Positions 11,522 through 47,412 of a stretch of 56,729 bases of DNA are shown here, one piece after another. Source of the stretch: a virus. Within the stretch, counting starts at the first letter, position 1. Every line of letters starts with the position of its first letter. The position numbers were made by a program, and so were the translations under genes. Below the pieces are notes generated by a model. That model saw nothing but the letters and a program-made list of their open reading frames with translations, was not told where the DNA came from and made no database searches. The DNA is taken from positions 1 through 56,729 of the IMG/VR virus record IMGVR_UViG_3300021197_000610; one strand, written 5' to 3'.

Positions 11522-11713
11522 TTAATGTATCGGACCTTCATACCAATCATCCCAATCTTTTTCAAGCTCGTTGTGAAACCTGATGTCAGCCGCCATTAAG
11601 AAAAATAAGGCTGCAAGTTCCATCGAATACTCATCTTCTATCTTACCTTCTGCAAATAGCTTACCATATTTCTCAAAAGTTTCTATAGGTACTTTTCTAT
11701 CTTTTTTGCTCAT
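11522..11713 (-). CDS. Acidic hypothetical protein, 63 residues
   Basis: ATG at 11713 overlaps the recombinase stop by four bases. The product is acidic, mainly helical (ELAALFFLMAADIRFHNELE) and ends with a Trp-rich DWDDWYEG segment. No family recognised; being coupled to the recombinase gene could point to a small partner, but that is guesswork. Confidence 0.6.
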   Translation of the reverse strand: MSKKDRKVPIETFEKYGKLFAEGKIEDEYSMELAALFFLMAADIRFHNELEKDWDDWYEGPIH

Positions 11714-12594
11714 TCCCTTTGTCTCCTCTCCAATGCAGACTTTGCAGTCTTCAAACTAAATTTGTTGTACGGATTCAAACTCTGTACATTCTTGTGACCA
11801 GACACCGATTGTATTGCCAGATGGTCAACTCCACTCTCTATCATTTGTACGATTGCGGTCTTACGCAGATCACCTACTCTTAGATCATCAGGAAGGCAAG
11901 CAATAGCTTTTACCTTCGACAGTAGGTCTGTCATCTGATAAACCGTTAGTGGTCTGTAGGCATTGTCTTGTGGGCGGTGATGAGGAACTACATAAGGTTG
12001 AAAGTCCCAATCCTCTTTCTGCTGACGTAGCATGGCTATCAGGTTGTCTGGAATAGGTAGCTCAACTGTAGCACCACGTTTAGTTTGAGTAATTGTAACT
12101 ACACCCGAATCAAAATCAAGTTGATCCCAAGTCAGGTTGCGTATGTCTATGGGACGTTGTCCCCACTCATAACACATCATTACAACCAGTCCGATGTTAC
12201 GCCACTCAAATTTTAGGAATGCTGTGTCGAGAAATGATAGTACTTGGTCATGTGTCCATACTACAGAACGTGGCTCACTGGTACGTTTATGTACCCTAGC
12301 CATAGGGTTAGATGTAATTTTTTCCATGTTAATCATGTAGTTCATAACTACAGAAAAAATACGAGCATTGTGATTTGCATTAGCTGTCGATGTCTCTAGC
12401 TCCCAAGTATCATATACTTCGGTACACAAGGGTACATTTAGATTTTTGATACTGATGTTGCCTAGTATCCTACCGCCTATAGGCAGACGACAGAAGGCGT
12501 GTAAGGATGTCTCATAGCCTTTTTGAGTAGAGGCTGCGAGTGATGCAAATTGTCTAGTATGTAAGTACTCATCTACTGCTGTTCTAAATTTCAT
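11710..12594 (-). CDS. Tyrosine recombinase (integrase-like)
   Basis: About 294 residues from ATG at 12594 (AGGA eight bases upstream; a TTG start 24 bases earlier is less likely). An N-terminal SAM-like core-binding domain is followed by a catalytic domain with WGQRPIDI (Arg), QTKRGA (Lys), VGDLRKT (second Arg), SGHKN (His) and NPYNK (Tyr). The His usual in box II (HxLR) is Gly here (GDLR). No repressor, excisionase or att site was found, so the protein may integrate the genome, or instead resolve genome forms as in some lytic marine phages. Its expression is linked to an 18-codon leader. Confidence 0.85.
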   Translation of the reverse strand: MKFRTAVDEYLHTRQFASLAASTQKGYETSLHAFCRLPIGGRILGNISIKNLNVPLCTEVYDTWELETSTANANHNARIFSVVMNYMINMEKITSNPMARVHKRTSEPRSVVWTHDQVLSFLDTAFLKFEWRNIGLVVMMCYEWGQRPIDIRNLTWDQLDFDSGVVTITQTKRGATVELPIPDNLIAMLRQQKEDWDFQPYVVPHHRPQDNAYRPLTVYQMTDLLSKVKAIACLPDDLRVGDLRKTAIVQMIESGVDHLAIQSVSGHKNVQSLNPYNKFSLKTAKSALERRQRE

Positions 12595-12647
12595 ATCTTT
12601 CCTATCCAATGGGAACAATCGTCATGTGGATCATCTACTGGTTCCAT
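12591..12647 (-). CDS. 18-residue leader peptide before recombinase
   Basis: ATG at 12647 with GGAGGAG five bases upstream, the strongest ribosome site in this area. The stop TGA overlaps the recombinase ATG as ATATGA. The peptide is acidic with DDPHDD and CSHW. Its translation would load ribosomes onto the recombinase start, so it may act as a translational coupler or leader. Confidence 0.5.
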   Translation of the reverse strand: MEPVDDPHDDCSHWIGKI

Positions 12648-12679
12648 AGGCTCCTCCTACCTCAAGGAACCTATAGTTA

Positions 12680-12690
12680 TACTTAAAGTA
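12680..12690. promoter_or_regulatory. Operator-like palindrome TACTTAAAGTA, left copy 1
   Basis: An 11-bp palindrome with 5-bp arms around one central base. It lies in the untranslated stretch downstream of the leftward promoter at 12742-12769. The same sequence, allowing A or T at the centre, recurs at 12728, 18632 and 18716. Confidence 0.6.
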
Positions 12691-12727
12691 TTTATTATTA
12701 CTATAGTAAATAATAGATACCTAAAGT

Positions 12728-12738
12728 TACTTTAAGTA
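12728..12738. promoter_or_regulatory. Operator-like palindrome TACTTTAAGTA, left copy 2
   Basis: It lies just past the -10 box of the leftward promoter, over the expected transcription start near 12735. Protein bound here would block or alter initiation of the replication operon. Confidence 0.65.
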
Positions 12739-12741
12739 TAT

Positions 12742-12769
12742 AAAATAGATGCTTTGAGCATTATGTCAA
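12742..12769 (-). promoter_or_regulatory. Sigma-70-type leftward promoter for replication arm
   Basis: Read leftward: TTGACA at 12769-12764, a 16-base spacer, and TATTTT at 12747-12742. The -35 box is perfect and the -10 box is moderate. It would drive the leader, recombinase and the replication operon. The upstream gene ends at 12771, so the -35 box directly follows its stop codon. Confidence 0.6.
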
Positions 12770-12770
12770 G

Positions 12771-13739
12771 TTAGTATAGATATTTTTTACCTACTCGGTA
12801 CGCATAATTATCGTTATAGTTGTAATAATGTGACATATCATCTATTTGACACTCCTCCATAAGTTGCTGTGGAGTGAATCCGTACTGGTCTAGCATCTCG
12901 GCAACCCTCGTAGGGTAGTCAATAACAAGTCTCTCCAAGCTATCTATATTCTCATCGTCCTTGCCGTAGTTGTAGCCGTACTTGTCAGTACCTTTCCAGA
13001 TGTCATCTACTACCGATGGGTCACGTTCAAACACTAGACCAGACCAGTCAGCTTGACATAGTGCAATCAGTAAATCATCAGCATATTCAAGGTCTTGTAT
13101 CTCATTCTTAGTGTGCTGATTGTAGTAGCCAACACTGATATTAGTACACTCAGATACGATGTCAGCATACTCATTACTGTCGGTGTAAGACCCACCATCA
13201 TCAGGCTGTAGTAGTGGCATTTTTACAACACTAGCAAAAGATTTTGCAAAGGTGTCCGATGCGGTACGCATACCCATCTGGTGGGTAATCACAGACTTCT
13301 GACCATAACGATCAAACGAAATAACTGCATCTAGTTGATCAAGCCACTTAGGTTTGTAGGATACAAGACTTGTACTACCCTGACATCCAGACTCCTCTGC
13401 TGCATGAATAACATACACACCCTCAATGCCATGCTCAATCATACCTAGTATGAGCCAGATACCAGTAGTACAGTCAGCACCTAGACAATTAGAGTCAGCA
13501 TTATTAGATACGGACAGTACGTCATTGGTAACAATGAGCTTTTGTAAGCCACCCTGTCTGTGTACAGTGTCATGGTGTGCAGTAAAGCACAGATTAGGTT
13601 TGTCACCTATGATGTGGATATAGTTGCCAAAAGCATCAGGCTTACCGAATGTAGGTTCAAGAAACCTCCGACAAAATTTACGTTGTGTCTTACTGCCCTC
13701 AGGTCTTCTGTAAGTCATCATTTCTACTAGACTATACAT
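12771..13739 (-). CDS. M28/M42-like zinc metallopeptidase homologue
   Basis: 322 residues. The metal ligands of co-catalytic zinc peptidases appear in order: TAHHDTVHR (HxD), LGADCTTGIW (the GADD-type Asp), HAAEESGCQG (EE pair), ISFDRYG (Asp) and YNQHTKNE (last His). Such enzymes trim N-terminal residues or amidohydrolyse small molecules in the cytoplasm. The C-terminal 90 residues are acidic and Tyr/Asn-rich, unlike the peptidase, and may be a binding tail. It follows the zinc-binding-like gene directly (TAATG-type junction). Substrate unknown. Confidence 0.75.
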   Translation of the reverse strand: MYSLVEMMTYRRPEGSKTQRKFCRRFLEPTFGKPDAFGNYIHIIGDKPNLCFTAHHDTVHRQGGLQKLIVTNDVLSVSNNADSNCLGADCTTGIWLILGMIEHGIEGVYVIHAAEESGCQGSTSLVSYKPKWLDQLDAVISFDRYGQKSVITHQMGMRTASDTFAKSFASVVKMPLLQPDDGGSYTDSNEYADIVSECTNISVGYYNQHTKNEIQDLEYADDLLIALCQADWSGLVFERDPSVVDDIWKGTDKYGYNYGKDDENIDSLERLVIDYPTRVAEMLDQYGFTPQQLMEECQIDDMSHYYNYNDNYAYRVGKKYLY

Positions 13740-15349
13740 TAGTCATTCTCCTCTTTATTTTTCCATACATTATCATCTAGATCTTTTACAAGACCCTCTT
13801 CTTTTGCTTCTTCTATTGAGATAGAGTCACCATTGTCAGTAGTGGCTAGCTGATCTGAAGCATAACACTCACCATTACCATCAGATATGAAGTAGTCACC
13901 GTCAACTATACACTGTTGACCTACATAGACATCTTCATCTTCACAGTAGTAACATAAGTCAACGTGCCAAGTATTGTTATCAGGATCACAGAATATGAAC
14001 TCATCACCACACTCTACACAACCCTCATACACACGTTCTTTTTCATAGCCATGACTGCCGTAGTTACTAGGCACATACACAATCATAGTCTCATTGATGT
14101 GACAATCACGATCTGCCCACTCACAGTAGATGTGATCCTCATAGTAACAATCAGAACAATAACTCTCTTCATTGTACTCACTGAAGTATCTGTCATCCTC
14201 ATGGACACCCTCACCACAACGAGCACAGTGACAATCATGCCCATCAAGTATGCCCTGATAGCTATTGGCATCAATGTCACCATCATCACTGATGATAAGG
14301 TACTGATCATTGTCACACAATCTACGAGGTTCTAAGTCAAGGTATGGTGCATAGTACCCATCATTATCTTCAACTTTGTTACGAGCTAGCTTTGCACCAA
14401 CCCAGTCACCATCCGTACCATACTGACCGTCAGTGGCATGGATCTTATCTGCTAGCATATCTATTGCTTGTTCAGACACACCATAGATGGGAGCACCCAA
14501 GTATTTTCCATCGGGCATGACACGAACCACACAACGAGATGCAATCTTACCATCTTGGTCTTCTGTCCATAACATCTTGAAGTCACCACTTGCATATGCT
14601 GCAACTGGATGCTTAGGCAAGTTATCAAAGCTGTACCGCATACATGATGATGCACTAGACTTACGTCTATAACTGGTTTTGATGTTGTCAGTAGGAGCTT
14701 GCTCCCATGAGTATGCTTTGACAAAGTCTTTGGCATCTGTACCCTCCTTGAGGATTAGATCACGTTGAATAAACCTATCCATATAATTATCGGTAAGCTC
14801 AATAATTTGTTTGTGATCAAGCTCAGGACATATCATTTGAAACGCACGAGCTGGCTTCATTGCCACTTCTCGGTCACGATCAAACCTGTCTTGAGCATTT
14901 TGATACATGGCAATCTTAGGAGCAAACCTATGAGATCTGCGAGGACGGAACGCACGAAGTCGGATAGCCAACTTGAACTCGACTGCATAGAACGAGCCTA
15001 GTAATATAAGAATCTCTCTCTCAAGAAAATCTATCAAGGCTCTATCATCTATGTTGAACATCTCAACATCTTCATAGTCACCCCACTGTTTTAGTACAGG
15101 GTCAGTCTCATCTGGTACTGAGTAGTCACGAGTAACTACAAAGCCATGATCATGTGGGTAGGTGATACGAAAAGATATCCCATTGACCTCGACAGAACAA
15201 TGGGCAAGTTTTCTCCTACCATCTTGCATATAATACTGAGTATTATCTACATCGTAAAACTTGTGAGTCTCAAGATGCTTGGTAATATCTGGTAGATATT
15301 CATCTGCACGATCAGGTTGTGCTACCATTATTTGAAACTTATCAGACAT
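13739..15349 (-). CDS. 536-residue protein with Cys-rich zinc-binding region
   Basis: The N-terminal 350 residues have no family I recognise. The last third has repeated CxxC-type pairs: CHCARCG, CSDCYYEDHIYC, GCVECG, CYYCEDED, resembling several LIM- or RING-like zinc knuckles in a row, and is very acidic. This suggests a cytoplasmic zinc-binding scaffold that holds nucleic acid or protein partners. It is expressed early by position, between a glycosylase-like conserved gene and the metallopeptidase gene. No enzymatic motif was seen. Confidence 0.6.
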   Translation of the reverse strand: MSDKFQIMVAQPDRADEYLPDITKHLETHKFYDVDNTQYYMQDGRRKLAHCSVEVNGISFRITYPHDHGFVVTRDYSVPDETDPVLKQWGDYEDVEMFNIDDRALIDFLEREILILLGSFYAVEFKLAIRLRAFRPRRSHRFAPKIAMYQNAQDRFDRDREVAMKPARAFQMICPELDHKQIIELTDNYMDRFIQRDLILKEGTDAKDFVKAYSWEQAPTDNIKTSYRRKSSASSCMRYSFDNLPKHPVAAYASGDFKMLWTEDQDGKIASRCVVRVMPDGKYLGAPIYGVSEQAIDMLADKIHATDGQYGTDGDWVGAKLARNKVEDNDGYYAPYLDLEPRRLCDNDQYLIISDDGDIDANSYQGILDGHDCHCARCGEGVHEDDRYFSEYNEESYCSDCYYEDHIYCEWADRDCHINETMIVYVPSNYGSHGYEKERVYEGCVECGDEFIFCDPDNNTWHVDLCYYCEDEDVYVGQQCIVDGDYFISDGNGECYASDQLATTDNGDSISIEEAKEEGLVKDLDDNVWKNKEEND

Positions 15350-15350
15350 G

Positions 15351-15845
15351 TCATTTCCTCCATTCTGGTTCTCTACCCCAACGCCATGTCAAGGTAATGT
15401 TACGTTCTTTCCAACGATCATTCATATACATTTGATATGCTTTGTGCACATCACTAACATCTGAATAATCAACTCCACGTTCTAAATTTCTGGCACAATT
15501 AGCAAATGGTGTCAACTCCTCATTTGGAAAATTGCCTACATCACTATACTCATCTAAGTAAGGTATGAGATTACCTGACTTGTGTTTGTTGCCACCTTTC
15601 TGTAAATACAGATGAGACATATGAGACAGTAACCATTTGAAATTGCTACGAGATTTTCTTGCCCACTTGCTACATGGATGATTGATGTAAGCAAGTTTGT
15701 AGACAGGCAAGGTAGTGTCAGGATCTAGCCAACGCACTGCGGTAGACAACATCTGTGCAGACTCAAGAATCATCTTGTTCTTACGGATGTCATCTAGCCA
15801 CCATGCTGACTGCATCGGACACCGAGACAGTGCAAATATATTCAT
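15351..15845 (-). CDS. Conserved phage protein of unknown function, 164 residues
   Basis: The N-terminus (MNIFALSRCP, then KMILESAQMLSTAVRWL) recalls a protein found in many T4-like and marine phages, usually annotated only as hypothetical and sometimes likened to pyrimidine-dimer glycosylase. Later segments NHPCSKWAR and SNFKWLLSH are also typical. No catalytic residue can be pinned down. Located in the early leftward arm next to the helix-turn-helix gene. Confidence 0.65.
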   Translation of the reverse strand: MNIFALSRCPMQSAWWLDDIRKNKMILESAQMLSTAVRWLDPDTTLPVYKLAYINHPCSKWARKSRSNFKWLLSHMSHLYLQKGGNKHKSGNLIPYLDEYSDVGNFPNEELTPFANCARNLERGVDYSDVSDVHKAYQMYMNDRWKERNITLTWRWGREPEWRK

Positions 15846-15853
15846 TAGACCTC

Positions 15854-16201
15854 CTAATTAAATAGTTGACGAATGTTTGAGAGTATCTGATCATACCTCT
15901 CAACAGACATCTCAAGCTCTTTAATACGTTTGTTTTTCTTGAGAATTTCTAACGTCATCTCTCCATTCTTAACTCGAACACTCTTGAAGTGTAACACCTC
16001 ACGTTTTTGCAAAATTGGCTGCAAAAATTCAGTAGCCATGTTACGATTAAAGAACTTGTTACGATAGCCAAGGCTCTTACGCCACCTACAGATTTGACTT
16101 CGGTTTACACCGAACTCAGCTGAAGTGTGATCAATAGTGTGGTTCTCATAGAACTTGCACACCTTATGCTTGAACTCAGTTGTATGTATTGTCTTACCCA
16201 T
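15854..16201 (-). CDS. Helix-turn-helix protein, transposase-OrfA-like, candidate regulator
   Basis: 115 residues. The N-terminal half (TTEFKHKVCKFYEN, then SAEFGVNRSQICRWRKSLGY) is the helix-turn-helix of IS3-type OrfA or Psq-like proteins; the C-terminus (LKKNKRIKELEMSVERYDQI) looks like a coiled coil for dimerisation. No transposase partner or inverted repeats are nearby, so it is more likely a phage transcription factor. It is a candidate reader of the TACTTWAAGTA sites, which is untested. TTAGGAGG precedes its ATG. Confidence 0.7.
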   Translation of the reverse strand: MGKTIHTTEFKHKVCKFYENHTIDHTSAEFGVNRSQICRWRKSLGYRNKFFNRNMATEFLQPILQKREVLHFKSVRVKNGEMTLEILKKNKRIKELEMSVERYDQILSNIRQLFN

Positions 16202-16216
16202 TTTAACCTCCTAAGT

Positions 16217-16348
16217 TTACTGCTTGGGTTCTACTTTTACGTTTCTAACACCTTTTGATTTTAGAAACAATGCTGTTTTCTCACCACAAGCTCGTGGTGC
16301 AAAACAAATGCGTATACCATCTACGCATATCCAGACGTACTCAGACAA
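16217..16348 (-). CDS. Possible small protein, 43 residues, TTG start
   Basis: An open frame from TTG at 16348, overlapping the upstream stop (TTGTCTGA), to TAA at 16217. The product (starting SEYVWICVDGIRIC) looks protein-like, with three Cys and a basic C-terminus. There is no strong ribosome site, so translation would depend on coupling. Otherwise the gap holds nothing. Confidence 0.4.
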   Translation of the reverse strand: MSEYVWICVDGIRICFAPRACGEKTALFLKSKGVRNVKVEPKQ

Positions 16349-16661
16349 GAGAATAGACCTGTTTGGTCACGTCATAATCTGCACAGACCCACCCACCAGT
16401 GAATGACATTCTGTCCAGACCAAGAGTAGGATTAGCCAACTTCAGTCTACTTACGCAGTCCTCAAGGCTAGCCCCTGATATTTGAACAGGTATATCTTTA
16501 ACACCGTTATGATATACGCCATCCAAAAGATAATAAAAAGGCTCATCGACATTGCCGAAAGCCTCAGCTACCTGAGCATAAGCATACCGCAAATATCTCA
16601 GACGTTTATTGTGATGAAGCACTTTCTTTTCTTCGTCTTCGTCCACGTTATTATTCACCAT
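16341..16661 (-). CDS. Hypothetical protein, 106 residues
   Basis: No known family. A charged N-terminus (NVDEDEEKK) leads into a helical stretch (RLRYLRYAYAQVAEAF) and beta-like segments ending in GGWVCADYDV. It lies in an unbroken leftward run with the 71-residue gene directly upstream (stop and start adjacent). Its ribosome site GGAGG lies 8 bases before ATG. Confidence 0.6.
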   Translation of the reverse strand: MVNNNVDEDEEKKVLHHNKRLRYLRYAYAQVAEAFGNVDEPFYYLLDGVYHNGVKDIPVQISGASLEDCVSRLKLANPTLGLDRMSFTGGWVCADYDVTKQVYSLV

Positions 16662-16877
16662 TTATTCATATGCCTCCTCTATTATAGTCCATTGCAAGTT
16701 TAAATTTTCCACGTTGTGATACTCATTTATCGTACCTTTGTCACCGTGAAACTGTGGCGGTTCAGCACTGCAAACAACCACACGATAAACAGTATCGTAC
16801 AGGTTTACAGGAGGAGTACCGTGACAAGAATAGTCAAGTCTCCACACGTCACCGCAATCATTCGTTCGTATAATCAT
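16662..16877 (-). CDS. Hypothetical protein, 71 residues
   Basis: A short, Trp- and Cys-containing protein (NDCGDVWRLDYSCHG) with no recognised family. It begins a two- to three-gene cluster downstream of the hairpin terminator at 16993-17016, so it may have its own promoter in 16878-16990, where I could not identify convincing boxes. Confidence 0.55.
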   Translation of the reverse strand: MIIRTNDCGDVWRLDYSCHGTPPVNLYDTVYRVVVCSAEPPQFHGDKGTINEYHNVENLNLQWTIIEEAYE

Positions 16878-16992
16878 GTCTTACAGCCTTTCTACATTAC
16901 TTCATGAGGGTGCATCCATCCAAAGGGAGATCATTTGTGTTGAAAAAAAATTACGGATACACCCACAAAAAGTAATGCTGAACATTGGAAAA

Positions 16993-17016
16993 CACCCAAC
17001 ACACTAGCATTGGGTG
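16993..17016 (-). terminator. Leftward intrinsic terminator after the 164-residue early gene
   Basis: A perfect 7-bp stem CACCCAA/TTGGGTG with a 10-base loop lies 20 bases past the stop of the gene at 17036. Read leftward it is followed by TTTTCC. It would separate that gene from the cluster beginning at 16877. Confidence 0.65.
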
Positions 17017-17035
17017 CTTATCCGATGGTCAACCA

Positions 17036-17530
17036 CTAGGCAACTACAGCCTTGAGTTTCTTGACCATATCAGACGGCACACTGTCTCCATCCTTCAACC
17101 CATCTTGACGTCTTTTCTCAGCTCTAGCAATAAGAGCATGGATCATATCGTCAAGGTTCAGGGGCTTGTACTCAGGCTCAGGCTTGAACTCCCAGTAGGG
17201 AGTGTCGATAGCAGCTCGAGCATCACTCTTGCTGATCTTGGTACGGTTCTTGTGATATACAAAACAGCTTTCGTCTGTATCCCACACAAAGGTCAAGAAG
17301 CTCTCGACCCACGCCTTGACCGCATTAGAACGCCAACCACTAGGCAAGCTATCAAGCAGAGCATTAGTTTGACGAACAGCAACCGTAACATCATTAGTCT
17401 CATTCCAAAGCACAGCAATAGAAGCAAGCACACGATGCGTGTCGGCTTGCAGCTTAGAGCCACGAGAAGCAATAGACGCAATCATTTTGTCGATTGCAAC
17501 GTCAGTTTTGATAAGTGTAATTTTAGCCAT
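17036..17530 (-). CDS. Conserved-looking early phage protein, 164 residues
   Basis: First leftward gene after the central region, with AGGAGG seven bases before its ATG and a terminator behind it, so it is probably a separately and strongly expressed early gene. Helical, with KITLIKTDVAIDKMI at the start and a basic C-terminus (IARAEKRRQDGLKDGD). Base composition is GC-richer than the rest of the arm. I recall similar proteins in other marine phages but know no function. Confidence 0.7.
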   Translation of the reverse strand: MAKITLIKTDVAIDKMIASIASRGSKLQADTHRVLASIAVLWNETNDVTVAVRQTNALLDSLPSGWRSNAVKAWVESFLTFVWDTDESCFVYHKNRTKISKSDARAAIDTPYWEFKPEPEYKPLNLDDMIHALIARAEKRRQDGLKDGDSVPSDMVKKLKAVVA

Positions 17531-18222
17531 GTAAACCTCCTACGATCTAGCTATACAACCTACCCACCATGAGTAAGCTGTACAAGCTAGACCGAGAGCC
17601 ACACAAAAACCACAGCATGTGCAGCTCTAGGGTTCACTTGTGACGGCATGGGTGCATCTCAGCATATATCCCCAAGTACTAGCAAAGGTTGTCCGACCAT
17701 TCTAGCAATACCGCCAAATATAAAACTCAAAGCACCGACTACGAAAGAATTGACAAGTATCGCATAGCACAATTGAATTGCACACTAGCATTGATACAAA
17801 CGCATCTAACAAGTCGGAACTCGCAAACCCTACCGTCACCCCACCGCACGCAAGAATTAGTCGCACGTCTGGACTTACAGCACTATCTTATTGGACGGCA
17901 TCACACCGCCACCGATAGGGCATTGAGCCACGCCAAAGGCGTGTATGTAAACGCAAGGTTGATCCTACAGCACTCCCTAGACCCATCACGGGCTAGATGC
18001 GAGTAGTAGACCCTGCTAGTCGATAAAGGCCGACTGGCCGTTCCGAATAATTAGAGAATACAGCAATTGACCGAGATGTAAATAGGTGTAAGCTATTGAT
18101 TTTAAACGATAATACATATTTTATTTATTGAATATGTTATTGGTTTCTCTGTTTGTTCTCATTGTGTTCTATGTTAGTGATTCGTTCCTGATTCGTTCTC
18201 ATATGCCCAAAGTTTCTACGTT

Positions 18223-18290
18223 ATGTTATAACATTACATACTTGCAGAGTCCGAATGTGTGACATTTTGATATTTGTTATGTTATAACAT
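18223..18290. repeat. Two copies of 12-bp palindrome ATGTTATAACAT
   Basis: Perfect palindromes at 18223-18234 and 18279-18290, each preceded by GTT-like bases, 56 bp apart (about five helical turns). The spacing puts both on the same face of the helix, as for a pair of protein-binding sites. Confidence 0.6.
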
Positions 18291-18507
18291 AGCATTTGCC
18301 ACACACCACAATCACACATTGTATAGAAAAGCCTTTATATTCAAACATTTATATATTCAGATATGTGAATATGTTTTCTGATAGTTGTGACACATTCAAA
18401 TATTCGAATATGTAGGGGCATGGGACAGGGTAGGGGTCATGGTATGCGTTTATAGCCAATGACAGAGATGTGATTTTTTAGTTTTGGACAAAATGCCGCA
18501 CCTAAAC

Positions 18508-18544
18508 GTGATCACAGGCTGTTATCTACTTTAAATGTGATCAC
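18508..18544. promoter_or_regulatory. Two GTGATCAC palindromes, 29 bp apart
   Basis: Identical 8-bp palindromes at 18508-18515 and 18537-18544, nearly three helical turns apart and 44 bp upstream of the rightward promoter's -35 box. The second is embedded in TGTGATCACA. This layout fits a dimeric activator or repressor site pair; the binding protein is unknown. Confidence 0.5.
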
Positions 18545-18587
18545 AAATATAAAAATCAATAATAATAAAAATATTTTTGTTTACCCC

Positions 18588-18617
18588 TTGACCTCGGGGC
18601 ATAGAGTATTATATAAT
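18588..18617 (+). promoter_or_regulatory. Rightward sigma-70-type promoter P1
   Basis: TTGACC at 18588-18593, 18-base spacer, TATAAT at 18612-18617. The expected start near 18624 falls inside the palindromes at 18622-18642. It would give a leader of about 180 bases before the first rightward gene. Confidence 0.7.
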
Positions 18618-18621
18618 ACAT

Positions 18622-18642
18622 AAAGTAATATTACTTTAAGTA
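18622..18642. promoter_or_regulatory. Overlapping operators at P1 start point
   Basis: A perfect 16-bp palindrome AAAGTAATATTACTTT (18622-18637) overlaps TACTTTAAGTA (18632-18642). A near copy, AACTTAAAGTA, follows at 18652-18662. Placement over the transcription start mirrors the leftward promoter at 12.7 kb. Confidence 0.65.
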
Positions 18643-18715
18643 CCTCTATGTAACTTAAAGTAACCTTAAGTTTCTATTATCTCTTATATATTAATAGTTA
18701 TTATATACTTTAAGG

Positions 18716-18726
18716 TACTTAAAGTA
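18716..18726. promoter_or_regulatory. Operator-like palindrome TACTTAAAGTA, right copy
   Basis: Exact copy of the shared 11-bp palindrome, with a one-mismatch partner immediately before it (TACTTTAAGGT at 18706-18716). It lies 47 bp upstream of the second rightward promoter. Confidence 0.6.
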
Positions 18727-18773: not shown

Positions 18774-18802
18774 TTGACTTTATTTCCCCTTCAAGGTATA
18801 AC
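18774..18802 (+). promoter_or_regulatory. Rightward sigma-70-type promoter P2, abutting first ATG
   Basis: TTGACT at 18774-18779, 17-base spacer, TATAAC at 18797-18802. The ATG of the first rightward gene is only four bases past the -10 box, so a transcript starting here would have no leader or would miss the ATG. It may serve genes further along. Confidence 0.6.
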
Positions 18803-18805
18803 TAG

Positions 18806-19063
18806 ATGAGAAAAAGACACACGTATTCTTCGGATAATGTTGTAGAAGAGTTCTACAAGGCTCTTGCAGACAAAAACGAAGGTAAGCTTCGCAGGGTACA
18901 CATACCAAGATCTGATGTATTCTATGTACGAGAGGCAATTTTTCAAAACACAGGTACTAAATACTCCCTAGACAGGGTAGAACGAGCTATGTATCTAGAA
19001 GGTATGCTCAATATTAGAGATGTTTTTGAGCCTGAACGTAAAAGAGAATGGGAAACTGACTGA
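18806..19063 (+). CDS. Basic hypothetical protein, 85 residues
   Basis: First gene of the rightward arm. Charged, mostly helical (VVEEFYKALADKNEGKLRRV, then SLDRVERAMYLEGML), with a possible winged-helix look but no clear family. Overlaps the next gene by one base (TGATG). As the first gene after the control region it could be a regulator, but this is only positional. The ribosome site is weak (AAGG nine bases upstream). Confidence 0.6.
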   Translation: MRKRHTYSSDNVVEEFYKALADKNEGKLRRVHIPRSDVFYVREAIFQNTGTKYSLDRVERAMYLEGMLNIRDVFEPERKREWETD

Positions 19064-36682: not shown

Positions 36683-39211
36683 ATGGCAGGTTATACAAGA
36701 CAATCAGTAGCTGACATTATTGCTAATGCAGTCATTAAAGCTGCACCAGTAAACGCAGAGTACAATGCTATTCGTGATGCCTTTGCTGCAGCAAGTGGGC
36801 ACAAACATGATGGTAGCACAGGAGAGGGAGCTAATGTCCCTCGTATAGCTGATACTGATGCCCTAAACAAAGTTGTTGTAGATACATCAAATAACAGAAT
36901 TAGTTTTTTTACTGAGGTATCTTCTTCTGCTGTAGAACAAATTAGACTAGAGGATGGTGTCCTCAAACCTGTATCTGATGATGATATAGATCTTGGTGCT
37001 ACAGGAGCAGAGTTCAAAGATCTGTACATTGATGGTATAGGTTACATTGATTCTGTTGTTATTACAGGTGGTACAATTGATGGTGCAGTAATAGGTGGGA
37101 CTACAGCAGCAGCAGGTAGTTTTACTACACTAGCTGCTTCTAGTAACGCCACTGTAGGTGGTACTTTTGCTGTTACAGGTACATCTGCTCTTACAGGCAC
37201 AGCAACTATTACATCTGCTGACATTAACTCAGGTGCAGTAGACAACACTACTATTGGTAATACAACTGCTGCTGCAGGTAGTTTTACTACTCTTAGTGCA
37301 TCAGGTACTTCTACTTTAACTACAGTAGACATTAATGGAGGAGCAATAGATGGTGTCACCATTGGTGGATCTTCTGCAGGTGCAGGTACATTTACAGACT
37401 TAACAAGCACAGGGACATCAACACATGCTACGGTGGATATTAATGGCGGTGCTATGGATGGCACAACAATTGGGGCTAATAGTGCTGCGGCAGCTAGCTT
37501 TACAACTGTTGCTACATCTGGTCAGGCGACATTGGCGACTGTTGATATTAATGGTGGTGCTATTGATGGTACTACTATTGGGGGTAGTACACCTGCAGCC
37601 ATAACAGGTACAACAGTTACAGCAAATTCAAACTTTGTTGGAAACATTACAGGTAACGTTACAGGTAATGTATCAGGTGATGTTACTGGTGACGTAGCAG
37701 GAGATTTAACAGGTAACGTAACTGCAGGTTCAGGAACATCATCATTTACTAACGTGACCATTAATGGCACTCTAAACATGAACGCAGGTACATCTGCAAC
37801 GATTACTAATCTTACAGCACCTAGTTCTGATTTAGACGCAGCAACAAAATTATATGTTGATACAGAGGTAGCAGGTCTTGTAGACTCAGCACCTGGAACA
37901 TTAAATACTTTGAACGAATTGGCTGCAGCATTGGGGGACGATGCAGATTTTGCCAACACAATCACAACAAGTATAGCAACCAAGCTACCACTAGCAGGTG
38001 GTACAATGTCTGGTGCTATAGCTATGGGTACAGCTAAGATTACAGGCTTGGGTGATCCAACAGCAGATCAAGATGCAGCAACTAAGAAATATACTACAGA
38101 TACATTCTTACCATTAGCAGGTGGAACTCTAACAGGTGCATTAGCAGTAGGTAGTAACAAGATTACTGCTAGTTATACACCAAGTGCTAGTGCTGATCTC
38201 ACAACAAAAACATATGTAGATGGCATACTTGGTTCAGCTACTGCAGCTTCTACTTCAGCATCTGCTGCTGCTAGTTCTGCCACTGCTGCTGCCTCAAGTG
38301 CTACTGCTAGTGCTTCCTCTGCAACAGCAGCAGCTTCTAGTGCAACCTCTGCAGCATCTTCCTATGATTCATTTGATGATAGATACCTTGGTGCTAAGTC
38401 TTCAGCACCCTCAGTTGACAACGATGGTGATGCCCTAGTTACTGGTGCTCTCTATTTTAATAGCTCTACAAATATTATGAATGTTAGGACTAGTGGTGGT
38501 TCTTGGACTGCAGCAGGTTCATCTGTAAATGGAACTTCAAGTCGTAATGTCTACACTGCTACAGCAGGTCAAACTACGTTTGCTTCTACATACGATTCTG
38601 GTTTTGTAGACGTTTGGCTTAATGGTTTAAAATTAAAAAGTGGAACAGACTTTACAGCTACATCAGGAACTAGTATAGTTCTTGCAAGTGGTGCTACTGT
38701 TGGGGACATCGTAGATATTGTCGCCTATGGCACATTTAATTTAGCTAATCATATAACAGAAGCACAGTCTGATGCTAAGTATCTTTTAGAAGCTAACAAC
38801 CTTTCTGATTTAGTCAGTGCACCAACAGCAAGAACAAATCTTGGTGTAGCTATTGGATCTGATGTACAGGCTTACGATGCAGGTCTAGCTTCAATTGCAG
38901 GACTAACAACTGCAGCAGATAAAATAATTTATACGAGTGGTTCTGATACATATGCTGTAACAGACTTCTCTTCATTTGCTAGAACACTTGTTGACGATGC
39001 TGACGCATCAACAGCTAGAACAACTCTAGGTGTAGTCATAGGAACAAACGTTTTAGCATACGATGCAAACTTACAGAGTTTTGTTTCTGTATTTACTCTC
39101 CCAACTTCTGATGGATCAGCAGATCAGTTTCTAAAAACGAATGGGTCAGGGACACTTAGCTTTGCAACAGTAGACGTTCAGGCTGATCTTAGAAAATCTT
39201 TTGTATTATAG
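36683..39211 (+). CDS. Large repetitive tail fibre protein
   Basis: 842 residues. The first 70 residues (QSVADIIANAVIKAAPVNAE, HKHDGSTGEGANVPRI) look like a virion-attachment domain. Next are five imperfect 35-40-residue repeats built on DINGGAIDGTTIG...AAGSFTTL, then GNVTGNVSGDVTGD repeats, LPLAGGTLTGAL units, a Ser/Ala coiled segment, and TAGQTTFASTYDSGFVDVWL typical of fibre knobs. It is the main trimeric fibre candidate. No intramolecular chaperone was seen at its end. Confidence 0.8.
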   Translation: MAGYTRQSVADIIANAVIKAAPVNAEYNAIRDAFAAASGHKHDGSTGEGANVPRIADTDALNKVVVDTSNNRISFFTEVSSSAVEQIRLEDGVLKPVSDDDIDLGATGAEFKDLYIDGIGYIDSVVITGGTIDGAVIGGTTAAAGSFTTLAASSNATVGGTFAVTGTSALTGTATITSADINSGAVDNTTIGNTTAAAGSFTTLSASGTSTLTTVDINGGAIDGVTIGGSSAGAGTFTDLTSTGTSTHATVDINGGAMDGTTIGANSAAAASFTTVATSGQATLATVDINGGAIDGTTIGGSTPAAITGTTVTANSNFVGNITGNVTGNVSGDVTGDVAGDLTGNVTAGSGTSSFTNVTINGTLNMNAGTSATITNLTAPSSDLDAATKLYVDTEVAGLVDSAPGTLNTLNELAAALGDDADFANTITTSIATKLPLAGGTMSGAIAMGTAKITGLGDPTADQDAATKKYTTDTFLPLAGGTLTGALAVGSNKITASYTPSASADLTTKTYVDGILGSATAASTSASAAASSATAAASSATASASSATAAASSATSAASSYDSFDDRYLGAKSSAPSVDNDGDALVTGALYFNSSTNIMNVRTSGGSWTAAGSSVNGTSSRNVYTATAGQTTFASTYDSGFVDVWLNGLKLKSGTDFTATSGTSIVLASGATVGDIVDIVAYGTFNLANHITEAQSDAKYLLEANNLSDLVSAPTARTNLGVAIGSDVQAYDAGLASIAGLTTAADKIIYTSGSDTYAVTDFSSFARTLVDDADASTARTTLGVVIGTNVLAYDANLQSFVSVFTLPTSDGSADQFLKTNGSGTLSFATVDVQADLRKSFVL
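37060..37620 (+). repeat. Coding repeats in tail fibre gene
   Basis: Five degenerate units of roughly 110-120 bases, each encoding a GGxIDGxxIG...FTTL block. The nucleotide copies differ at many third positions, so they are old, and they could change number by recombination. Confidence 0.6.
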
Positions 39212-44773: not shown

Positions 44774-45700
44774 GTGAAAAAACTATTTTTTATTGATGGG
44801 GGCGCAGGTCGTGCTGTAGCATCTATACCTGCTTTCCTAAAGTATGCAAAGAAACATGATGACTTTGCTATACTAGTACATGGATGGGATACTTTATATT
44901 GGGGTATCCCTGAACTACAAGACAAAGTATTTAACCCTGAACAAAAAGGTATCTTTGACCACGTAATAAAAGATGCTGAAGAGCTTGTATCTCCTGAACC
45001 ATATCGAGTGCCAGGATACTTTAAACAAGAATTATCTTTAGCTGAAGCCTTTGATGTTCTAATTAATGATACGAATGATCATTCTGATCTAGGTCTACCT
45101 GTTCTTAAAACTTCTAAGATGGAAGAGATTAATGCAGCAGGTATGTTCTTGGATGCAAAGAATCAGCAGAAAAAACAAAAGAACATTGTGTTGCAACCCT
45201 TTGGGCGTTCTGCACAAAAACATCCTACTGGTACTATTATTGATGAATCATCTCGTTCTCTTGATCCTCAGTCGTATCTAAAACTAGTTAAGAAGTTAAG
45301 TGTAAAGTACAACCTAGTTCTTATGGCTGAACCAGATTTTCATATGGCAGAGGATACCTACACTGTAAAACCACAGGCAGACCTACGAATGTGGACTGCA
45401 TTTATTGGTTCAGCAGACTACTTTATTGGTGTAGACTCAGTTGGTCAACACATGGCTAGAGCATTAGGAACTCCTGGAACAGTAATTGTTGGTTCTACAT
45501 TTGCTATCAACACAACTTATCCAGACTACTTTAACATTGTAGAAAAAAAGGATGCTAAGAAATACTCACCTATTCGTATCTCAGGTCTTGAGAGTCACCT
45601 AGCTGACAGAGCTAACGATACTCTGATGGATTTTAGTGACGAAGAAATAAATGCAATGTATACTAACATTGTCAAAGATATTGAAAAGAAGGTGAAGTAA
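44774..45700 (+). CDS. Heptosyltransferase-like (GT9/GT-B) glycosyltransferase
   Basis: 308 residues from GTG at 44774. The C-terminal half has the family pattern DYFIGVDSVGQHMARALGTP followed by GTVIVGST, as in ADP-heptose:LPS heptosyltransferases; NIVLQPFGRSAQKH begins the nucleotide-binding domain. The N-terminus (FFIDGGAGRAVASI) takes the place of the usual GDxV start. It probably moves a sugar from a nucleotide donor to an acceptor in the cytoplasm. With the heptose genes downstream the donor could be ADP-heptose. Overlaps the next gene by one base. Confidence 0.75.
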   Translation: MKKLFFIDGGAGRAVASIPAFLKYAKKHDDFAILVHGWDTLYWGIPELQDKVFNPEQKGIFDHVIKDAEELVSPEPYRVPGYFKQELSLAEAFDVLINDTNDHSDLGLPVLKTSKMEEINAAGMFLDAKNQQKKQKNIVLQPFGRSAQKHPTGTIIDESSRSLDPQSYLKLVKKLSVKYNLVLMAEPDFHMAEDTYTVKPQADLRMWTAFIGSADYFIGVDSVGQHMARALGTPGTVIVGSTFAINTTYPDYFNIVEKKDAKKYSPIRISGLESHLADRANDTLMDFSDEEINAMYTNIVKDIEKKVK

Positions 45701-47412
45701 TGAATATTTTAGCAATCAATCCAGGACATAATGGTTCTGCTGCTCTAGTAGTAGATGGTGAATTAAAATTTTATATAGAGGAAGAAAGACTTTCTCGTAG
45801 TAAATATGATGGAAATCCTTTTGCAGGAATGATGGAAGCACTAAAGTATGGTGTAGACATCCTAGTTCTTGGTGGTACTTCAGAACAATTTCCACAGTTA
45901 CCTTGGACAGGAGAAGATCCTTACTCTGGTTTTTTAAGAAAATTTAATCCTAACTTACAAATAATAAGTGTTGGTGGTGCTCACCATCTAGGTCATGCAG
46001 CAAATGCTTTCTACAACTCAGGGTTTAAACAGGCTGCTGCAGTTATTGTAGATGGATCTGGTTCTCATAGACAGATAGAAATTAATGAAGAGTTTAAGAA
46101 CCCAGGTTTTGAAACAGAATCTATTTTTAACTGTGACTATGAAGAGGGAATAAAACCTGTATTTACTTCTTATGGTGGAAACTACGATACCCAACGTATA
46201 GTAAATGAAGAGTTAGAGATGGATAGTGCTATAACACTAGTTAAAGCATACGAAGCTGTTTCACACTATCTTGGGTTTGGTTACATTGAAGCAGGTAAGA
46301 CAATGGGTCTTGCACCATATGGTAAAAGAAACGAGTTTATTCCTAGTTTGTTTTATAATGGCAGAGGTAACAAGAACGTATTTATTCCTAACTACCCTGC
46401 AGGTGCTTACGTAGATCACTTACGCCACCCTTTACTAGAACTAAAAGAAGACCCTAAAGCTTGGCATAGTGACTACACAAAGGTAACAGATGCAGCAAAA
46501 GACTTAGCTTGGGCTGTGCAGGATGAGACACAAACTCTTGTAGGAGACTTAATCGAAAAGGCTGTAGATAAAACAGGACACAAAAACATTGTTATATCAG
46601 GTGGTTATGGTCTTAACTGTGTAGCCAATTACTACTACAAGGAAAGGTTTCCTGATCTTAATATCTTTGTTGACCCTATCTCTCACGATGGTGGTACAGC
46701 AATAGGGTTAGCCAAACTAATTCACTACGATAAGAACAAAGAGGATAAGACTATACGTCCTATGACTACTCTTTATCTTGGCCCTGAACGTAAAGAAGAC
46801 TATGACCTTGGTGATATAGAAACTAAAGATGTTAAAGCTGCTGATGTAGCAAAGCTAATAGCAGACAAAAACATTGTAGCTCTATTCCAAGGACGTTCTG
46901 AAGCAGGACCACGAGCACTAGGTAATCGTTCTATACTATACGATCCCACAGATACTAATGGTAAAGACTTTGTAAACGCAGTCAAAGGAAGAGAGTGGTT
47001 CAGACCTTTTGCAGGTTCAATGCTACAGGAAAACTTTGAAGAGTGGTTTGAAACTCGTGGGTTAGAAGAGTCACCATACATGATGTATGCTATGGACTTT
47101 AAGACTGAGAAGCATGGTGAAGTTCCTGCGATTACACACGTAGATGGTACATGTCGTATTCAGACTGTAACCAAGAAACAGAACCCTAGCTATTATTCCC
47201 TGATAAAAGAGTTTGATAAAATCACCGGTGTTCCTATTTTGTTCAACACAAGTTTTAATCTAGCAGGTCAGCCTTTAGTTGAAACTTTACAGGATGCTAT
47301 AGATACTGTAAAGAACTCAGACATAAATTACTTATATCTGCCAGACATAGGTAAGCTAGTACACTATCCTTATAATGACAGCATTGTTGAGGATATGGGA
47401 GAAGCTGCTTAA
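45700..47412 (+). CDS. Carbamoyltransferase (NodU/CmcH/TobZ family)
   Basis: 570 residues. Family marks: NPGHNGSAALV at the start, HHLGHAANAFYNSGF, RSEAGPRALGNRSIL and FRPFAGSM. These enzymes make carbamoyl-AMP from carbamoyl phosphate and ATP in the C-terminal YrdC-like part, then transfer the carbamoyl group to a hydroxyl through the Kae1-like part. The acceptor may be a sugar made by this cassette; phage members are also proposed in DNA base modification. Overlaps the convergent phosphatase by four bases. Confidence 0.9.
   Translation: MNILAINPGHNGSAALVVDGELKFYIEEERLSRSKYDGNPFAGMMEALKYGVDILVLGGTSEQFPQLPWTGEDPYSGFLRKFNPNLQIISVGGAHHLGHAANAFYNSGFKQAAAVIVDGSGSHRQIEINEEFKNPGFETESIFNCDYEEGIKPVFTSYGGNYDTQRIVNEELEMDSAITLVKAYEAVSHYLGFGYIEAGKTMGLAPYGKRNEFIPSLFYNGRGNKNVFIPNYPAGAYVDHLRHPLLELKEDPKAWHSDYTKVTDAAKDLAWAVQDETQTLVGDLIEKAVDKTGHKNIVISGGYGLNCVANYYYKERFPDLNIFVDPISHDGGTAIGLAKLIHYDKNKEDKTIRPMTTLYLGPERKEDYDLGDIETKDVKAADVAKLIADKNIVALFQGRSEAGPRALGNRSILYDPTDTNGKDFVNAVKGREWFRPFAGSMLQENFEEWFETRGLEESPYMMYAMDFKTEKHGEVPAITHVDGTCRIQTVTKKQNPSYYSLIKEFDKITGVPILFNTSFNLAGQPLVETLQDAIDTVKNSDINYLYLPDIGKLVHYPYNDSIVEDMGEAA

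Follow-up and report, generated by a model that had tools for sequence, protein, structure and literature searches.

The palindrome TACTTWAAGTA marks, by sequence comparison, a probable conserved two-arm operator system in a 56,729-nucleotide viral DNA (hereafter the window, meaning the whole stretch analysed). That the system represses, that its reader binds as a dimer and which protein this reader is are our inferences. A literature search for the motif returned nothing relevant, and no earlier report of the system was found. Exact copies number four (12680–12690, 12728–12738, 18632–18642 and 18716–18726) and lie, as originally predicted, only in the two control regions, two in each. Whole-window shuffles gave a mean of 0.13 copies and never four. 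When the two AT-rich regions were shuffled alone, 0.001 and 0.006 copies were expected versus two and two seen, and these numbers were never matched. One-mismatch copies number three: two in the right control region (18617–18627 and 18652–18662), which bears out the two near copies of the original prediction, and a further one at 37312 inside a structural gene, which departs from it. Frequent copies inside genes had been named as evidence against the proposal; no exact copy and this single one-mismatch copy were found there. The two-mismatch count in the window is at chance level. The features are listed below, with palindromic sites given without a strand.

11710–12594, minus strand: tyrosine integrase, first large leftward gene; start re-read as ATG 12594, not TTG 12618.
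12680–12690: left operator 2, TACTTAAAGTA, inverted with respect to left operator 1.
12718–12728: degenerate left site, TACCTAAAGTT, two mismatches, weak.
12728–12738: left operator 1, TACTTTAAGTA, directly downstream of the −10 element.
12742–12769, minus strand: leftward sigma70-like promoter (TTGACA 12769–12764, TATTTT 12747–12742, spacer 16), a consensus match only.
18588–18617, plus strand: putative rightward distal promoter P1, TTGACC-18-TATAAT; a similar P1 is present in most lineages.
18617–18627: right near copy, TACATAAAGTA, one mismatch, spanning the predicted start site.
18632–18642: right operator, TACTTTAAGTA, exact.
18652–18662: right near copy, AACTTAAAGTA, one mismatch.
18706–18716: degenerate right site, TACTTTAAGGT; the centre of the next site is 10 bp away, a spacing pattern found in relatives.
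18716–18726: right operator, TACTTAAAGTA, exact.
18774–18802, plus strand: proximal promoter-like element P2, TTGACT-17-TATAAC, right before the start codon.
18806–19063, plus strand: conserved 85-aa protein, first right-arm gene, adjoining the right array; leading candidate reader.

The promoters are consensus predictions. Since a whole promoter scan gave no more matches than were obtained in shuffles, the leftward promoter and P1 rest on conservation in relatives and not on the scan. A site overlaps the predicted start at both promoters, as had been proposed: the TATAAT of P1 ends at 18617, the first base of the right near copy, and the leftward −10 ends at 12742, with the left site at 12738–12728 directly downstream. 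Counted from the base after the P1 −10, the first site starts at −1 to +3 in the majority of loci in clusters 2, 3 and 7 and mostly at +16 to +17 in the HMO cluster. First-site placement varied in cluster 4, and cluster 6 had no P1 under the pattern used. Adjacent site centres in the T-type clusters are commonly 10–13 bp apart. A P2-like element (TTGAC-16/17-TAnAAC) is kept in most lineages. In the CRP-2-like (L108–L187) and HMO-like (L188–L267) loci, the −35 TTGACA of the proximal element abuts the annotated ATG (59/59 and 58/63 unique regions, respectively), and its −10 therefore falls inside the gene.

Hundreds of relatives of the 85-aa gene were found in IMG/VR. The best 80 loci hold 145 exact copies of the word. 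Of these, 116 fall in the 700 bp that precede the 85-aa gene and the remaining 29 are all found 5.7–7.8 kb upstream of it, in the leftward control region; none was found outside the two control regions (~0.96 Mb). The lineages were sampled via the 85-aa gene, so that the co-occurrence of gene and operator is partly circular. A protein-independent scan of 2.9 million IMG/VR viral contigs was made for two words 25–55 bp apart; it is not a census. Among the matches listed (80 loci), the word was mostly in the two known places: 33 loci hold the 85-aa gene, 35 have no 85-aa gene in the stretch covered and code for two or more proteins of the window, most of them from the left arm, and the remaining 12 match fewer than two window proteins and are unrelated. 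Six loci (L464–L469) lie on MAG contigs in a bacterial genome collection, with the same contig names and lengths under NHFY01 and NZIV01. They were considered as prophages in bacterial genomes and rejected, as they are probably misbinned phage.

The window shows 66–84% terminase and 65–76% portal identity to six isolates, which by the group criterion places it among the HMO-2011-type phages (Puniceispirillum phage HMO-2011 and Roseobacter phages CRP-1, -2, -3, -9, -13, -207 and -603). Phages of this type have been described as dominant in the ocean and as having a wide distribution there (PMC9038755). The main texts of the HMO-2011-type phage literature searched contain neither 'promoter' nor 'repressor'. 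The isolates checked have the 85-aa gene first in the right arm and share right-arm genes with the window, but their operator versions differ from that of the window. A family A polymerase was found in the window; it matched none of five isolates and matched CRP-9 weakly, and on these comparisons the window is a possible recombinant of the CRP-9 kind. The gene at 45700–47412 was assigned as a carbamoyltransferase by Pfam.

CRP-9, CRP-13, CRP-207, CRP-2, CRP-603 and HMO-2011 all carry the 85-aa gene, but their control regions lack the exact word; HMO-2011 has one exact copy, outside its control regions. Absence in related phages had also been named as evidence against the proposal. It is found in the literal sense, yet lineage variants replace the word, and in substance the motif persists. 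The control-region palindromes are TACTnnnAGTA in CRP-9 and CRP-13, ACATTAATGT in CRP-2, CACTTAAGTG in HMO-2011 and CACTTTAAGTG in CRP-1. Most clusters show enrichment of a core, ACTnnnAGT, upstream of the 85-aa gene, with T, C or A as the outer base and varying middle bases; no such enrichment was found in some small clusters or in CRP-207. Across seven lineages, left arrays fit the right arrays of their own lineage better than expected, ranking second of 5040 pairings, a rank that is no independent probability because the lineages are related. The left array was not found within the searched stretch of CRP-2-, CRP-207- and HMO-type phages. Conservation, promoter-locked position and joint left/right divergence make one regulator common to both arms well supported at the sequence level. 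The original prediction of a single regulator for the replication and late arms is thereby supported as to the shared regulator; the first leftward gene is a tyrosine integrase and not a replication gene.

The palindromes are likely to be operators of one phage-encoded repressor, acting on two opposite sigma70-type promoters. At the leftward promoter it would control the integrase and then the replication genes, and at the rightward promoter the 85-aa gene followed by the lysis, packaging and structural genes. The 11-bp dyad, with its core ACTnnnAGT, would be recognised by a dimer. With sites about one helical turn apart, the bound units would line up downstream from the start site, and the filled array would block initiation or escape of host RNA polymerase. 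Repression is suggested because the sites are positioned at and downstream of the start. The accompanying claim that the genome has no phage RNA polymerase gene agrees with the scan of the large ORFs, none of which matched a Pfam RNA polymerase; a dedicated PF00940 search was run without a working control.

The reader of these operators might instead be a host protein, a regulator that several phage groups infecting the same hosts have borrowed. Cobavirinae-like contigs, which are fragments with CRP-4 as the nearest isolate, carry the same word at two leftward promoters, and no small regulator common to them and the HMO-2011-type phages was recognised among the matches listed. Against this, CRP-1, CRP-2, CRP-9 and CRP-13 have one recorded host strain, FZCC0023, and different operator versions, from which the reader is probably phage-encoded; left and right arrays also vary together within lineages. 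A host reader is accordingly judged unlikely. The Cobavirinae-like contigs and CRP-4 (L470–L479 and L482), which belong to another phage group, have the same or a similar word at their leftward early promoters. A DNA-binding protein common to these contigs and the window group was sought, and none was recognised among the matches listed.

The paired sites are inverted repeats, and the arrays could therefore act as leader RNA (or cruciforms), with long hairpins at the 5' end through which the stability or translation of the mRNA is controlled. The left leader of the window folds with a z of −5.25, and left arrays fold better as the transcript than as the opposite strand in 22/31 cases (mean z −4.5 vs −3.4). 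Right arrays show no strand preference in folding, however, and the single sites are palindromic, spaced by about a helical turn and locked to the −10, none of which a hairpin needs. As the explanation of the arrays, RNA structure is rather improbable, although it may contribute on the left. An 18-aa leader ORF (12591–12647, minus strand; region 12591–12676) has a stop overlapping the integrase ATG at 12594, and its Shine–Dalgarno sequence and start lie within a 13-bp hairpin.

That the bound protein activates early or late transcription is quite improbable: with no phage RNA polymerase seen among the ORFs scanned some switch of the host polymerase would presumably be needed, but the promoters have good hexamers and the sites lie at their start and downstream of it. 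Activators usually bind upstream. Replication-origin iterons or integrase arm sites would suit an AT-rich, non-coding right region and a left array bordering the integrase gene, but are highly improbable given one word in two distant regions at a fixed promoter offset, and a left array kept in CRP-9 and CRP-13, neither of which yielded a homologue of the window integrase.

For the repressor itself, the 85-aa protein is the best candidate. Its gene is present in all six isolates, it adjoins the right array, and the window ORFs at 12771–17530 occur in none of the six. We tentatively regard it as the reader, autoregulating from the first right-arm gene like Cro in lambda. Its candidacy, put forward in the original prediction, is weakened by the Cobavirinae-like contigs, fragments that bear operators and in which no 85-aa homologue was detected. 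The other protein proposed, at 15854–16201, was found in 16/38 T-type loci and 0/6 isolates and was rejected as a universal reader because many motif bearers lack it. A first IMG/VR scan confirmed no relative of this ORF and tblastn later found some, the first scan having probably failed because exact peptide seeds missed them. Pfam and PHROGs gave no DNA-binding signature in the 85-aa protein, including no recognisable ribbon–helix–helix domain. Its AlphaFold monomer model (pLDDT 88.5) is mostly helical and had no confident fold match in the PDB. BFVD returned two rows of probability 1.00, S4T7R2 (71 residues, 38% identity, E 0.0036) and A0A6J5NMS2 (82 residues, 40%, E 0.01), both above E 0.001 and with names that carry no function; from the level of identity they look like relatives. 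Residues 32–34 are invariant although the operators differ, and a simple residue-to-base code was sought across lineages and rejected.

The arrangement resembles lambda oL/oR in that one operator word is clustered at two oppositely directed promoters, the first right-arm gene is small and the lineage versions recall immunity specificities. It differs in its 11-bp dyads with centres 10–13 bp apart (lambda operators are 17 bp), in a right arm of lysis and structure genes, and in that no CI or Cro homologue was recognised among the ORFs scanned, the reader being a candidate. Dyads this short, spaced by one turn, suggest a reader of the ribbon–helix–helix type, as in Arc, MetJ and CopG, which use short palindromic boxes about one turn apart. 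The 85-aa protein is likewise small, with a short strand-like stretch and then two helices in the model, but unlike these repressors it has no Pfam or PHROGs match to the class; its monomer model gave no confident PDB match.

With a concrete regulon, a candidate reader and an operator code that differs among phages infecting one host, a lysis–lysogeny switch and superinfection immunity become testable. A wider reading, somewhat unlikely at present, is that the 85-aa protein is the first member of a new class of phage repressor, and that a single fast-diverging operator code controls the two arms of HMO-2011-type phages and sorts those of one host into immunity-like groups. Given the same operators in Cobavirinae-like phages, one phage could then silence another.

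Further repeats were seen near the right control region. Palindromes of the form TGTGATCACA lie upstream of P1 (window ~18507–18545) and are enriched there in relatives, with 33 upstream in 20 loci vs 12 elsewhere. Repeated ATGTTATAACAT-like palindromes occupy the non-coding stretch 18222–18290. In four loci (L088, L089, L090 and L334) an apparent hairpin, identified by eye only, lies between P1 and P2, with a CUCC-rich loop and phage-specific arms.
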